Shown here one piece after another: positions 33,277-39,151 of a stretch of 64,000 nt of DNA. Made by a program: the position numbers and the translations under genes. The DNA is from Microbulbifer agarilyticus (GTDB lineage Bacteria; Pseudomonadota; Gammaproteobacteria; Pseudomonadales; Cellvibrionaceae): positions 2,967,001 to 3,031,000 of the forward strand of contig NZ_CP019650.1 of assembly GCF_001999945.1 (NCBI RefSeq), given 5' to 3'. The first letter of the stretch is position 1, and the number at the start of each line of letters is the position of its first letter. Under the pieces are notes generated by a model. It was not told where the DNA came from, made no database searches, and worked only from the letters and a program-made list of their open reading frames with translations.

Positions 33277-33401
33277 TCATTAGCTGACGCTTGTTTCCAT
33301 TTAATGGTATCCGTGAATGGAATATCGGGGTGCAGAAAGGGAGAGAGAGGCTCGAGCGTGGAGAGTGGTTCCAGCGCACGAAAAGTAGCGAATTCAGATC
33401 T

Positions 33402-33482
33402 TGTTCCCTACGCAGGGGTTACCCTGATCAGGTTCAACGGATCTCGCGACAGCGATCTCAGCCCAAAAGGCACTCCGACAAG
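33402..33482 (-). promoter_or_regulatory. TPP riboswitch (THI box)
   Basis: On the minus strand the conserved aptamer blocks are all present in order: GGAGTGCC, GGGCTGAGAT, CCGTTGAACCTGATC, AGGGTAA, CTGCGTAGGGAA. It lies 140 nt before thiC and will repress the operon when thiamine diphosphate is high. No clear intrinsic terminator follows, so control is more likely at translation start or by Rho. Confidence 0.95.
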
Positions 33483-33622
33483 TTGGCGCTGAGTATAGGG
33501 GATGAGGCCGGGTTTGAACAGAAACCGAGGTGACGTTTCGCGACTTGTAACTTCCGTGGAGTCGCCCAGCTCTGACCACAGAGCACCCTCTGATGCCTTT
33601 TTCGCCACCTTATACTGGCCCC

Positions 33623-33925
33623 ATGAAGCCAGATACCAGCACCGTGATGCGCAACATCATCTCAGAAGTACGCGCCACCCTGCCTTTCACCATGCCGGCC
33701 GCCGAACTCTGCGCCGGCCCCTGTCAGGGGTGTGCGAAGAAACTGCTGGAATATCTGGATCAGGAAATCGACGAGTGGGAACACCGGCTGGATGCGGATG
33801 AAAAACCGACAATTGGGGAAGTGGCGAAGTTTGGCAAAACCTGCAGTCGGATTCACAAGGCCATCGCCGCAAACGGCTTGATCACGTCAGATCGAGAACC
33901 GGGAAAAAATACAGATGCTAAATGA
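33623..33925 (+). CDS. small conserved-type protein, unknown function
   Basis: 100-residue cytoplasmic protein. The segment ELCAGPCQGCAKKLLEYLDQEIDEWEHRL (about residues 24-52) has three closely spaced cysteines and a helical, acidic stretch; a fourth Cys is in KTCSRIHKAI near residue 75. The cysteines might bind a metal. I recall similar small proteins in Pseudomonas and relatives but cannot give a function. Divergent from thiC. Start chosen at ATG 33623, as the ten upstream codons look like leader. Followed by the palindromic repeat at 33936-34032. Confidence 0.7.
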   Translation: MKPDTSTVMRNIISEVRATLPFTMPAAELCAGPCQGCAKKLLEYLDQEIDEWEHRLDADEKPTIGEVAKFGKTCSRIHKAIAANGLITSDREPGKNTDAK

Positions 33926-33935
33926 GAAGGCGAAT

Positions 33936-34032
33936 TGTCGGGCAGGGCTTTTCAGGATCGTCGCAAACAGGATGTTTGCGACGAAGCGCCCAGGGATGGG
34001 TCTACAGCGGTCCTGAAAAGCCCTGCGCGACA
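33936..34032. repeat. dispersed palindromic repeat, copy 1
   Basis: 97-bp element between the small gene at 33623-33925 and accA. The outer arms of 22 nt, TGTCGGGCAGGGCTTTTCAGGA (33936-33957) and its complement at 34011-34032, pair with one mismatch. Inside is a perfect 11-bp hairpin TCGTCGCAAAC / GTTTGCGACGA (33958-33984), then CGCCCAGGGATGGG. The core is shared with copy 2 at 39010-39106. Confidence 0.85.
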
Positions 34033-34087
34033 GTTTGCCGCCACAGAATCAATTCAGAACCACCTAAGGCCTTAGAGAGGCCAAAAA

Positions 34088-35044
34088 TTAGCTAACAACG
34101 TTGCCGTAGCTCATAAGACGCTGGTAACGCTTCTCCAGCAGCTCATCCAGAGGAACAGCACTCAGCTTATCCAGCTGCTCAGACAGACGATCGCGCAGAC
34201 GCGCTGCCATCAGGTCCGGATCGCGGTGCGCACCACCGAGAGGCTCAGGCAGGGTTTCATCCACAATGCCGAGTTCCTCAAGCACACTGGAAGTTACACC
34301 CATGGCCTCGGCCGCCAGCGGCGCCTTCTCCACAGTCTTCCAAATAATATTCGCGCAACCTTCCGGGGAAATCACAAAGTAAGTGGAGTACTGCAGCATG
34401 TTCAGCTGGTCGCCCACACCGATCGCGAGTGCGCCACCGGAAGAGCCCTCACCAATCACCGTACAGATAATCGGCGTACGCAGACGGGACATTACCGCCA
34501 GGTTCTTGGCAATCGCCTCGGAAATACCGCGCTCCTCACTATCGATACCCGGGTAGGCCCCCGGAGTGTCGATCAGCGTCAGCACCGGCATCTTAAAGCG
34601 CTCCGCCATCTCCATCACGCGCTGCGCCTTGCGGTAACCTTCCGGCTTCGGCATACCAAAGTTACGCTTCACCTTCTCGTTTACCGAGCGGCCCTTCTCC
34701 TCACCAATCACCGCCACCGGGCGGCCTTCCAAACGGCCGATGCCAGCGATGATCGCCTTGTCATCACCAAAGTGACGGTCGCCGTGGAGTTCATCCCAAT
34801 CGGTGAAAATACGCTCAATGTAATCCTTCGCATAAGGACGCTGAGGATGACGGGCTACCTGGACGATCTGCCAGGGAGAGAGGTCGGAATACAGGGATTC
34901 GGTGAGCTTCTCGCTCTTTTCCCGCAGGCGGGTGATCTCTTCAGCAATATTGAGGTCATTGTCGTCCCCGACGTGCTGAAGCTCCTTGATCTTGCTTTCC
35001 AGTTCCGCAATCGGCTGTTCAAACTCGAGAAAACTGAAGTTCAT
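34088..35044 (-). CDS. accA: acetyl-CoA carboxylase carboxyltransferase, alpha subunit
   Basis: 318-residue subunit that, with AccD, transfers carboxyl from biotin to acetyl-CoA in fatty acid synthesis. Start [19 protein letters not shown] and length (E. coli 319) fit the family. An ATG 12 codons upstream is in frame but adds unconserved sequence. Crotonase-type core with [24 protein letters not shown] and [15 protein letters not shown]. Downstream of dnaE with a 263-nt gap. The usual next gene tilS is not present; the palindromic repeat follows instead. Confidence 0.96.
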
Positions 35045-35307
35045 GTAATTCGCGCCTTGATAATTCTGTGGGCCTGCCAAATGTTGGAAAATGCGACCAA
35101 AATACCCCGAACGGTCGCAAACAGGCCTCGTCTACTGAAAATGGCCGCTAGCTTACCGGGCCAGGACCAGCCAGTCGAGTGCACAGCGCACTAACCGGCA
35201 TCTCCTGTGTCCAATATGCCTATGTTGCTGGCGAGGTTGCTGGAGCGTGAGCAAAGAGAAACTGGCGACAGCGAATTCTCCCCTGCAACCAAGGCGGCAG
35301 GCCTAAT

Positions 35308-38300
35308 TTACTGCCGCTGATTGTAGTTGAGCTGTACCCGCTCCCGCCCAACTACCTCGCGCAGCGACTGAATCAACTGATCGTTGGGTTCCACTTTCCA
35401 CTCATCCGCCAGACGGAAAGTACCCTTCGCATCACTGCGCTCCACCTCGACCATCACCGGGCAGCTGCCACCCACGTAGGGGCGCAGGCAGGCACTAAGG
35501 CGTTGGCCCATCTTCGGCATCGCCTGAGCGCTGTCGATTTTCAAGGTCACGCCGATCACGCTGCCACTGCGCAGGTCATCCAGAGTGGACACGTTGTTCA
35601 CGCTCATCTTCAAGCCACCACTGTAATCGTCGTGGGAGATAGAGCCTTCCAGCACCAGCAGTGAATCCTTCACCAGCTTCTCGCGGTGTTCGCCAAAAGC
35701 CTCGCTGAACACCGCTGCCTCAATACGCGCACTGCGGTCATCGAGGGAAACAATGGCCATGGAATCACCGCGCTTGGTCTTCATCACACGCATGCCCACC
35801 ACCAGGCCGGCCACCTTCTGGTTTTCCCGTCCGGGCTTCAGGTCGGCGATGCGCGCATTCACCAGGTGCTTCAATTCTTCTTCGTATTCGTCGATAGGGT
35901 GGCCGGTGAGGTACAGGCCAAGGGTGTTTTTCTCCCCTTCCAAACGCTCGCGAATACTCCACGGACGTGCGCCGCGGAAATCTTCGTACACATCACCGTC
36001 GGACGCAGAGCGCACCACCTCACCGAACAGATCCATCATGCCGGCGCTGTCGTTTTTGCTCTGCTGTTCTGCAGACTTCACCGCCTCGTCCAGCGCGTTG
36101 AACAGCACCGCGCGGGAGTAGTCGAGGCCATCGGCACTGTTGGTATCCGGGCCGATGCTGTCCAGCGCACCGGAACGCACCAGCGCTTCCAGCGCGCGCT
36201 TGTTGACCTTGCGCGGGTCGATACGCGAGCAGAAGTCGAACAGGTCTGTAAACGGACCGCCGCTTTCACGCTCGGCGATGATGTTATCGATCGGGCCTTC
36301 ACCCAGGCCCTTGATCGCACCCAGGCCATAGATGATGCGGTTATCCACATCCACCGAGAACTGGTAGCTGCCCAAGTTTACATCCGGCGGCACCAGGTCC
36401 AGGCCCATGGCCCGGCACTCTTCAATGAAGATTACGACCTTATCGGTCTTGTCCATGTCCGAAGACATGGTGGCCGCCATAAACTGCGCCGGGTAATGGG
36501 CCTTCAGCCACGCGGTTTGGTAGGAAACCAGTGCATAGGCAGCGGAGTGCGATTTGTTAAAACCGTAACCGGCGAACTTTTCCACCAGGTCAAAGATCTT
36601 AATCGCCAGATCGGGATCTACCCCCTGGTCCTTGGCACCCTCTTCGAAGGTGGCCCGCTGCTTGGCCATTTCTTCGGGCTTTTTCTTACCCATGGCCCGG
36701 CGCAGCATGTCTGCGCCACCCAGGGTATAACCCGCTAGTTCCTGGGCGATCTGCATTACCTGTTCCTGGTAAACAATAACGCCGTAGGTCGGTTCGAGAA
36801 TTGGCTTCAGTTTTTCGTGCTGATACTTGGCATCCGGATAGGCCACCTGCGCACGGCCGTGCTTCCGGTTAATGAAGTCGTCCACCATGCCCGACTGCAG
36901 CGGGCCCGGACGGAACAGGGCCACCAGGGCGATCATGTCCTCGAGGTTATCTGGCTGCAGACGTTTGATCAGGTCCTTCATACCGCGGGATTCCAGCTGG
37001 AACACCGCGGTGGTTTCGGCACGCTTGATCAGTTTGAACGTCTCGGTATCGTCCAGCGGCAACGCCTCGATCACCAAAGGTTCTTTACCCTCACGCGCGC
37101 GTTGCTCGTCCACCATCGCCTTGGCCCAGTCGATGATGGTCAAGGTCCGCAGACCCAGGAAGTCGAACTTCACCAGACCCGCGTCTTCCACGTCGTTCTT
37201 ATCGAACTGGGTAACCAGACCGGCACCGGTCTCGTCACAGTACAGCGGAGCAAAATCGGTGAGCTTGGTCGGGGCGATTACGACACCACCGGCGTGCTTA
37301 CCCACGTTACGTGCAACACCCTCGAGCTGCAGCGCCATCTCCCAGATTTCCTGGCCTTCCTCGTCGTTCTCGAGGAATTCACGCAGTATTTCTTCCTGCT
37401 CGAAGGCCTTTTGCAGGGTCATGCCCACATCAGCGGGGATCATCTTGGACAGTTTATCGGCCAGGCCGTAAGACTTGCCCTGCACCCGCGCCACGTCCCG
37501 CACCACCGCCTTCGCGGCCATGGTACCGAAGGTAATAATCTGGCTTACCGCGTTGCGGCCATAGTTTTCCGCAACGTAGTTGATCACCCGGTCGCGTTTC
37601 TCCATACAGAAGTCAACGTCGAAGTCGGGCATGGAAACCCGTTCCGGGTTCAGGAATCGCTCAAACAGCAGATCGTACTGCAGCGGATCGAGATCGGTAA
37701 TTTTTTGCGAGTAGGCAATCAGCGAGCCCGCACCGGAACCCCGCCCCGGGCCAACCGGAATATCGTGATCCTTCGCCCACTGGATAAAGTCCATTACGAT
37801 CAGGAAGTAGCCCGGGAATCCCATCTGGATAACGATATCCAGCTCAAAGCGCAGGCGGTCTTCGTATTCTTTCTTACGCGCCTCGTAGTCGGGCGCGGAC
37901 TTATCGAGGATATGCTCAAGGCGCTCGTAGAGGCCGTCGAAAGAAATCTTCTCGAAGAACTGGTTTTCGGTCATGCCCTCCGGAATCGGGAACTGGGGCA
38001 GGAAGTATTTACCGAGCTGGATGGGCGAAGAACAACGACGGGCTATCTCTACCGTGTTTTCCAGCGCTTCCGGAATATCCTTGAACAGCTCGCACATTTC
38101 TTCCGGAGTACGCAGGTACTGCTCGGCAGAATAGCGGCGTTCGCGGCGCGGATCGTCCAGTGCACGGCCTTCACGAATACACACGCGTACTTCGTGGGCT
38201 TCAAACTCGCTGTCTTCGATAAAACGAACATCGTTGGTAGCCACCACCGGCAGGTTCATCTTGCCGGCCAGCTCCACCGCCGCATGCAGGTACTCTTCAT

Positions 38301-38826
38301 CACCCGCGCGCCCGGTGCGCTGTAACTCCAGGTAATAGCGGCCCGGGAAAATGCTGGACCACTCCTGAGCCAGTGCCTCGGCCTGCGAAGTTCGCCCGGC
38401 AACCAGCGCGCGGCCTACATCACCGTACTTGGCACCGGACAACATCAAAACGCCTTCCGACGCTTCCTTGATCCACTCCCGCTCCACAAATGCGTGGCCA
38501 TGGTATTGCCCTTCCATCCACGCGCGGGAAATCAGCTCGGTAATATTGCGGTAGCCGTCGGCATTCATTGCATACAGTGATACCAGCGTCGGCTGCTCTT
38601 CACCACCTTCTTTCAGCCAGAAGTCGGCGCCGGTGATCGGCTTGATACCGGCACCCATACAGGCTTTATAAAACTTAACCTGTGCATAGAAGTTGGTTTG
38701 ATCGGTGATCGCCACCGCCGGCATTTCCAGCTCCGCAACGCGGCCGATCAGCGGCTTGATACGTACCAGGCCGTCAATCAGGGAGTATTCGGAGTGGACT
38801 CTTAAATGTACGAAGGGTTGGGTCAT
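35308..38826 (-). CDS. dnaE: DNA polymerase III alpha subunit
   Basis: 1172-residue replicative polymerase. PHP domain at the N-terminus (HLRVHSEYSLIDGLVRIKPL), polymerase core with GPGRGSGAGSLIAY (about residues 361-374) and catalytic Asp residues in MPDFDVDFCMEKRD (about 398-411). Then the fingers region RRAMGKKKPEEM, helix-hairpin-helix near IYGLGAIKGLGEGPI, an OB-fold around KVAGLVVGMRVMKTKRGDSMAIVSLDD (about 1000-1026) and a C-terminal tau-binding region. Length is close to the E. coli protein (1160). Upstream lies a 325-nt gap containing repeat copy 2. Confidence 0.98.
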   Translation of the reverse strand: MTQPFVHLRVHSEYSLIDGLVRIKPLIGRVAELEMPAVAITDQTNFYAQVKFYKACMGAGIKPITGADFWLKEGGEEQPTLVSLYAMNADGYRNITELISRAWMEGQYHGHAFVEREWIKEASEGVLMLSGAKYGDVGRALVAGRTSQAEALAQEWSSIFPGRYYLELQRTGRAGDEEYLHAAVELAGKMNLPVVATNDVRFIEDSEFEAHEVRVCIREGRALDDPRRERRYSAEQYLRTPEEMCELFKDIPEALENTVEIARRCSSPIQLGKYFLPQFPIPEGMTENQFFEKISFDGLYERLEHILDKSAPDYEARKKEYEDRLRFELDIVIQMGFPGYFLIVMDFIQWAKDHDIPVGPGRGSGAGSLIAYSQKITDLDPLQYDLLFERFLNPERVSMPDFDVDFCMEKRDRVINYVAENYGRNAVSQIITFGTMAAKAVVRDVARVQGKSYGLADKLSKMIPADVGMTLQKAFEQEEILREFLENDEEGQEIWEMALQLEGVARNVGKHAGGVVIAPTKLTDFAPLYCDETGAGLVTQFDKNDVEDAGLVKFDFLGLRTLTIIDWAKAMVDEQRAREGKEPLVIEALPLDDTETFKLIKRAETTAVFQLESRGMKDLIKRLQPDNLEDMIALVALFRPGPLQSGMVDDFINRKHGRAQVAYPDAKYQHEKLKPILEPTYGVIVYQEQVMQIAQELAGYTLGGADMLRRAMGKKKPEEMAKQRATFEEGAKDQGVDPDLAIKIFDLVEKFAGYGFNKSHSAAYALVSYQTAWLKAHYPAQFMAATMSSDMDKTDKVVIFIEECRAMGLDLVPPDVNLGSYQFSVDVDNRIIYGLGAIKGLGEGPIDNIIAERESGGPFTDLFDFCSRIDPRKVNKRALEALVRSGALDSIGPDTNSADGLDYSRAVLFNALDEAVKSAEQQSKNDSAGMMDLFGEVVRSASDGDVYEDFRGARPWSIRERLEGEKNTLGLYLTGHPIDEYEEELKHLVNARIADLKPGRENQKVAGLVVGMRVMKTKRGDSMAIVSLDDRSARIEAAVFSEAFGEHREKLVKDSLLVLEGSISHDDYSGGLKMSVNNVSTLDDLRSGSVIGVTLKIDSAQAMPKMGQRLSACLRPYVGGSCPVMVEVERSDAKGTFRLADEWKVEPNDQLIQSLREVVGRERVQLNYNQRQ

Positions 38827-39151
38827 ATTTTTCTATTTAATTTGGTTCCGGGGCTCTTACAGCGCTCTGTTCCGGCAATACATCAAGGGGAAACAGCCCC
38901 TCTATGTACAAAATATTTTGATCAATAACTTCTTCTCAAGCCCACATCATTTCATGGACTTGGCAGGCAAATTCTATAGCGAAGTAAAGTGGTCGCTGCG
39001 CAGGTGGAGCAGTGGGTACGAGTTTTCAGGAGCGTCGCAAACAGGAAGTTTGCGCCGCAACGCCCAGGGATGGGTTCACAGTGGTCCTGAAAACTCGTAC
39101 CCACTGATCCGCCGCCTCAAACGGACAGACAAAACGAAACCAGGTCGAGGT
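38827..39151. other. intergenic region upstream of dnaE
   Basis: 325 bp with no gene. It contains the palindromic repeat (39010-39106) and an AT-rich part at 38880-38990 that should hold the dnaE promoter; no clear -35/-10 pair was picked out. Confidence 0.5.
39010..39106. repeat. dispersed palindromic repeat, copy 2
   Basis: 97-bp element with perfect 22-nt outer arms: CAGTGGGTACGAGTTTTCAG plus GA at 39010-39031, complement at 39085-39106. The inner hairpin CGCAAAC / GTTTGCG and CGCCCAGGGATGGGTT match copy 1. The inner arm TTTTCAGGA is shared, but the outer 13 nt differ completely from copy 1 and yet pair perfectly. Confidence 0.85.

Follow-up and report, generated by a model that had tools for sequence, protein, structure and literature searches.

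Two copies of a palindromic element in the chromosome of Microbulbifer agarilyticus (4.26 Mb, one contig) raise the question of what kind of object is maintained there: a structured RNA, a REP-type protein-binding site or a mobile palindrome, all of which an earlier note on this DNA had put forward. Both copies lie in a stretch of 64,000 nt (contig NZ_CP019650.1, positions 2,967,001 to 3,031,000; hereafter the window). Palindromic copies are indeed present where they had been placed, at 33936-34032 in a gap between convergent genes and at 39010-39106 in a gap between two genes of the - strand, but their limits had been drawn too tightly. According to the covariance model and the alignment, copy 1 spans 33924-34046 and copy 2 spans 38998-39120, both on the + strand and both 123 nt long.

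As read off the aligned structure, each copy consists of a basal stem (P1) and a head of two hairpins (P2 and P3), all given here on the + strand. In copy 1, the P1 arms lie at 33929-33957 (5') and 34011-34039 (3'), followed and preceded, respectively, by P2 (33958-33984, loop GGA at 33970-33972) and by P3 with its closing pairs (33986-34008, loop GGA at 33994-33996), so that the second GGA lies 24 nt downstream of the first. In copy 2, the corresponding parts are the P1 arms at 39003-39031 and 39085-39113, P2 at 39032-39058 (loop GGA at 39044-39046) and P3 with its closing pairs at 39060-39082 (loop GGA at 39068-39070). The 5' edge of copy 1 overlaps the stop codon of a + strand ORF without Pfam match (33647-33925), and 42 nt separate its 3' edge from the 3' end of accA (- strand, PF03255). 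Copy 2 is flanked by dnaE (PF07733, PHP) and a DUF1289 gene (PF06945), both on the - strand, and is thus antisense to both. The AccA protein encoded in the window matches that of Microbulbifer agarilyticus DP4N21-6 at 99% identity, and that strain carries both element copies at the same positions. On the + strand, the fold of either copy is far better than that of dinucleotide shuffles (z -10.9 for copy 1 and -9.6 for copy 2; 0/200 shuffles as good), and the sense strand fold is more stable than the antisense fold in both.

The two copies belong to a large family. A blastn search of the own genome gave 35 matches, two of which are copy 1 against its own opposite strand. A covariance model (R1) built from 30 copies, the kind of search from which the earlier note had expected further copies, returned 103 rows in the own genome; after removal of 31 opposite-strand echoes and one weak 85-nt match, 71 places remain, which makes at least 71 home copies, given that the best 150 of 1894 candidates were scored. 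Seventy of them are 120-139 nt long and one is 100 nt long, and all 71 are intergenic according to our own simple gene caller. In 25/71 home copies, a motif near TTACGAAGTA precedes the model start by 21-22 nt; at a cut-off of at least 8/10 bases, 26/71 upstream flanks match a TTACGAAGTA-like motif, compared with about 3 among shuffled flanks.

First, we focus on the stem, because its arms are where the copies differ and still pair. The 30 aligned home copies share an architecture of 46 pairs (29 in P1, 10 in P2, 5 in P3 and two closing pairs), in which 97.8% of cells pair and 33 of the 46 pairs show changes on both sides. This combination of pairing and covariation is reached by none of 500 shuffles, and slid controls give 37-44%. 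Outside the genus, 57 matches at 43 loci pair in 95.5% of cells, with both-sided changes at 44/46 pairs, values biased towards the structure by an alignment that follows the model and by loci chosen as its best matches; the complementarity of the arms is nevertheless visible directly in the aligned sequences. Without five opposite-strand echoes, these matches amount to 52 copies, whose P1 columns mostly have an entropy of 1.5-2.0 bits (range 0.84-1.99) and whose P1 cells comprise 1396 Watson-Crick pairs, 49 G-U, 10 A-C, 27 other combinations and 26 gaps. Hence, 97.5% of the scored P1 pairs form despite a near-random sequence of the 29-bp stem: the stem itself is maintained, with little constraint on its sequence. 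This is what had been proposed for the window copies, namely that selection keeps the stem and not the sequence, and the outer arms of the other copies pair, at home as well as outside the genus. The accompanying statement that the outer arms are unrelated between copies needs to be narrowed: the arms do pair within each copy, but in the own genome they align to a loose family consensus, and their sequences approach randomness at the level of the class. We are nearly certain that the object is a dispersed intergenic element of ~124 nt in Gammaproteobacteria, and that one of its strands forms a ~29-bp stem, free in sequence, capped by two hairpins with GGA loops 24 nt apart.

Equal numbers of G-U and A-C mismatches would be expected from a double-strand palindrome or a repair process. 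In the home copies, 87 G-U pairs stand against 2 A-C, or 30 against 2 without three fixed wobble pairs (p ~3e-7), and P1 of the 52 outside copies shows 49 against 10 (p ~3e-7); the contrast is weaker in P2 and P3 of the outside copies (5 vs 4 and 22 vs 11). The excess of G-U over A-C thus points to one particular strand, as RNA or ssDNA, as the most likely folded object; ssDNA folding would likewise prefer G-T over A-C. Together, the strand-specific G-U pairs and the two kept GGA loops argue for a folded single strand rather than a site bound as double-stranded DNA. The same strand specificity speaks against a DNA cruciform or a chromosome-organizing site concentrated in the origin half, an explanation that draws on the distribution of the copies along the chromosome. 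With dnaA, recognized from its ORF, taken by us to be position 1, 67/71 home copies lie within 65% of the half-chromosome measured from dnaA (binomial p 5e-9). A similar origin trend is seen in six other one-contig genomes (KS p 0.003 to 0.09, below 0.03 in 5/6), based on 7-17 copies each among the matches listed and, for three of them, on rounded genome lengths. The core genome also tends to be origin-proximal, and a cruciform or organizing site seems to us very unlikely.

The earlier note had also singled out for checking the position of the copies relative to gene ends. Of 71 home copies, 68 adjoin the 3' end of at least one gene; 30 lie in tandem gaps in sense and 23 in antisense orientation, 15 in convergent and 3 in divergent gaps. 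Gaps of more than 40 nt in the window, as defined by the same gene caller, number 26 tandem, 3 convergent and 6 divergent, and divergent gaps look under-used by the element in this small sample. Orientation relative to tandem genes is unbiased (30 sense vs 23 antisense, p 0.41). Such a placement might reflect a transcript-end element, i.e., a bidirectional terminator, an attenuator or an RNase barrier at gene 3' ends that acts through stem stability alone. The very stable folds of both window copies would suit this role, as would the missing orientation bias, given that a palindrome works both ways. Stem stability alone, however, leaves the two-GGA head and the strand-specific G-U pairs unexplained, and the 3' flanks inspected by eye contain no general T run; a pure transcript-end function is improbable.

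How widely is the element distributed? Model matches occur in 37 of 40 Microbulbifer genomes including the own one, with 1 to 89 matches each (echoes counted). Under filters stricter than those of the genus search, 37/115 genomes and 30/83 genera have matches at the order level, 26/143 sampled genomes at the class level and 13/200 genomes at the phylum level, all 13 of which are Gammaproteobacteria. Searches of plasmid, phage and E. coli collections with one consensus-like head as query gave no match, and the one pattern match in viral contigs (L336) was not confirmed by the model.

Comparison of fixed sites shows how copies change in place. At the dnaE site, 30 Microbulbifer loci were examined, out of 39 matching genomes. 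The first copy is present in 13 of the 30, with arms that differ by compensating changes, and 8 of these 13 also contain a partner in opposite orientation. The partner, as judged by position, is also present in two more distant loci that lack the first copy (L293 and L304), and the remaining dnaE-site loci gave no element match. In L291, the dnaE gap looks like the product of a deletion between CACCG repeats. Other sequences are found at this site as well: in two species (L280 and L289), the P2 loop of the copy on the dnaE side contains a GC-rich hairpin of ~29 nt, and the dnaE gap of L290 holds three near-copies of TGCAATTCTG in tandem where other species carry the element.

A broader view is provided by a relative (G032) with flanks 88-95% identical to those of the own genome (G000). 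Within the compared 400 kb, both flanks were available for 16 G000 loci, and G032 has a copy at every one of them. Among the 20 G032 copies in the compared 400 kb, 18 are at shared loci, one is opposite a head-less remnant in G000, and for one (C1:1311997) no G000 counterpart was found. One site has its copy in opposite orientation in the two genomes, a single copy takes the place of one inverted pair in G032, and the accA site is replaced in G032 by an unrelated segment of ~4 kb. None of the 17 loci compared with G032 is a clean empty site, and no target-site duplication was readable. Such a duplication, together with the terminal inverted repeats of a known transposon, would be expected of a MITE; the search for a parent transposon covered Y1 transposases. 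Because no locus is cleanly empty and the arms belong to the element, extension of a mobile element into flanking inverted repeats is unsupported. The identities put forward at the outset, a structured RNA, a REP-type site and a mobile palindrome, are still live. Insertion into pre-existing inverted repeats was rejected on account of the head-less remnant and the gap in L291.

Seventeen pairs of copies from G000 and G032, with the flipped site and the inverted-pair site left out and the dnaE site added, allow stem changes to be counted. While 375 stem pairs are equal, 73 are changed on both sides and still paired, 44 are changed on one side (29 still paired, 15 broken) and 1 is changed on both sides and broken; thus both-sided changes that keep the pair outnumber one-sided ones at shared sites (73 vs 44). 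When copy 1 is compared with its counterpart in the nearest relative (L136), its stem differs by one-sided changes, which counts against instant arm-to-arm correction. Two adjacent G032 copies have 20/21 outer arm bases and a like 14-15-nt insert in common, and their sequences suggest exchange between copies. Hairpin-like inserts of ~14 nt (GGGGGGCGCCTAGC type) were also observed at the P3/P1 junction in L027, L028, L029, L278, L281 and others. The inserts recur at this junction in copies from several species, subtype copies included, and look like a separately spreading mini-hairpin.

These data bear on a close rival of the CsrA-based reading developed below, a REP/BIME-like non-autonomous mobile hairpin. 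Here, a transposase-like enzyme would recognize folded ssDNA; copies would have moved formerly, and old ones would persist in gaps. The large copy number, the exclusively intergenic location with few copies in divergent gaps, and the arrangement of neighboring copies less than 600 bp apart (12 inverted, 0 direct) fit this idea, as does the preference for G-T over A-C expected of ssDNA. The unpaired foot GAAG, found in 28/30 aligned copies, recalls the GTAG tag of REPs, and the conserved loops together with the foot GAAG/CGCCAC might serve as recognition features. Inverted dimers, G-T pairs and unidirectional or convergent placement are also reported for REPs in passages of PMC3733652. However, a GTAG or CGTC tag is missing, a replication-strand bias is absent (35/71 home copies co-directional), there is no clean empty site among the 17 loci, and the searches of the plasmid, phage and E. 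coli collections with a single head came back empty. Mobilization by a RAYT was rejected, as the element is abundant in all three genus genomes that have no PF01797 match (14, 42 and 52 model matches, echoes possibly included). The single PF01797 match of the own genome is ~47 kb from the nearest element listed and is not flanked by copies. We grant a REP-like origin a serious but minority chance.

The head offers a more specific clue. In the alignment of outside copies, GGA occupies the P2 loop in 49/52 and the P3 loop in 52/52, and a separate hairpin scan detects two GGA loops in 68/71 home and 49/52 outside copies. The spacing between both GGA motifs has a median of 24 nt (range 22-51 at home and 4-57 outside), and CANGGANG occurs at least once in 69/71 home and 52/52 outside copies. 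According to passages of PMC7652899, CsrA bridges two sites 10-63 nt apart, and its SELEX consensus is RUACARGGAUGU. Judged by GGA/ANGGA hairpin loops with two sites 10-63 nt apart, 68/71 home and 49/52 outside copies look like CsrA/RsmA targets. The exact SELEX consensus is present on the sense strand of 4/71 home and 8/52 outside copies, in neither window copy and not once on the antisense strand of the 71 home and 52 outside copies. In 273,651 bases of the own genome (element surroundings and window), it occurs four times, 4/4 inside sense elements. A csrA gene was found in all 25 element-bearing genomes tested, but csrA is widespread in Gammaproteobacteria and its presence therefore tests little; in the own genome, the match covers 32/53 positions and is interrupted by masked bases. 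One genome of the same order (G106) has eleven CsrA-family matches, along with 12 element model matches.

Since the two-GGA head and its 24-nt spacing fit the published CsrA site and range, a dispersed two-site RNA element that binds CsrA/RsmA is our preferred mechanism, held tentatively and at somewhat less than even chances. Transcription from neighboring genes would read through a copy in sense direction, and inverted pairs would present one sense copy whichever way transcription runs. The RNA of a sense copy might then form a two-site docking platform for a CsrA/RsmA dimer, and the copies would act as distributed CsrA sites at gene ends that titrate CsrA or alter the stability of the host RNA. 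The stem arms would change together via mutation and selection, aided by exchange between copies, with pairing alone being important. PMC7937890 describes RNAs to which RsmA, RsmE and RsmI bind in vivo in Pseudomonas putida; a 'long palindromic region' is among them, as are related intergenic sites.

Several features argue against a CsrA-binding element. There is no orientation bias in tandem gaps, so that many copies would need antisense transcription or transcription of their own. P2 has a stem of 10 bp, compared with at most 4 contiguous pairs in most SELEX hairpins (reported in passages of PMC7652899), and its loop is short, with no base between A and GGA in 24/30 aligned home copies. Exact consensus matches are confined to a minority of copies, and a different protein, acting on ssDNA, might equally well recognize the conserved GGA loop. 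The wider proposal, that two-site CsrA docking elements are scattered over many gammaproteobacterial chromosomes, with dozens of them in many Microbulbifer genomes, and form a position-conserved sponge or landing-pad system whose stem arms are rewritten in step around a fixed two-GGA head, is rather unlikely. Interspersed palindromic repeats have been known for decades with no agreed function, and the present family combines unusually strong structural evidence with a loop motif that points to a specific protein partner open to testing. Should CsrA bind, a large share of its cellular RNA pool could sit in repeats ignored by annotation. If it does not, the family would be a clear case of a single-strand-fold repeat without RAYT.

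How does the element relate to known systems? A literature search, mainly of open-access journals, returned no description of the family, and none of the 4227 Rfam models exceeds its gathering threshold on six element loci. The best sub-threshold matches at these loci are two miRNA models (37.9 of 72 and 35 of 83 bits), followed by Ysr224 on the antisense strand (33.2 of 70). An identity with an Rfam RNA was thus rejected; the sole above-threshold family in the window is a TPP riboswitch (RF00059, 77 bits) at 33388-33487 on the - strand, away from the element. The weak match to the Yersinia sRNA Ysr224 (RF02770, 33 of 70 bits, E 3e-4) covers 1691-1787 of L035 on the element antisense strand, and a related two-hairpin layout may exist in Yersinia. 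The TwoAYGGAY candidate RNA (Weinberg 2010), whose name points to two hairpins with AYGGAY loops, is not known to have a variable paired basal stem. It is absent from the Rfam matches up to E 10 on the six element loci. A table in PMC2864571 reports it from gammaproteobacteria among others.

REP, BIME and REPIN sequences resemble the element in their intergenic setting, in inverted dimers, mostly 20-100 bp apart, with G-T pairs, and in their unidirectional or convergent gaps, as far as passages of PMC3733652 describe them. REPs and BIMEs are, however, palindromes of 20-40 bp, whereas the element has ~124 nt, a two-hairpin head and a variable 29-bp stem. Their foot tag is GTAG or CGTC, compared with GAAG in most aligned copies of the element and GCAG in the other 2 of the 30. 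A RAYT accompanies GTAG-family REPs, CGTC families are reported without one, and no RAYT association was found for the element. YPAL/RU-2 of Yersinia is likewise a long intergenic repeat with a stable fold, and its targets span or adjoin dyad symmetry; its length of 168 bp and the reported target duplications and empty sites (passages of PMC2229807) set it apart, by description only.

CsrA-titrating sRNAs of the CsrB/RsmY type share several GGA hairpin loops with the CsrA consensus (parts of PMC7652899 and PMC7937890). The element differs from them in having two sites per copy, dozens of scattered copies and a long basal stem. The long palindromic Rsm-bound regions near ISPpu8 of P. putida KT2440, likened here by description only, combine a palindrome in a gap with RNA that co-purifies with RsmA, RsmE and RsmI (sections of PMC7937890). 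REP, BIME, YPAL and the CsrA-titrating RNAs do not fit the element fully, yet each of them comes close to it in some respect.
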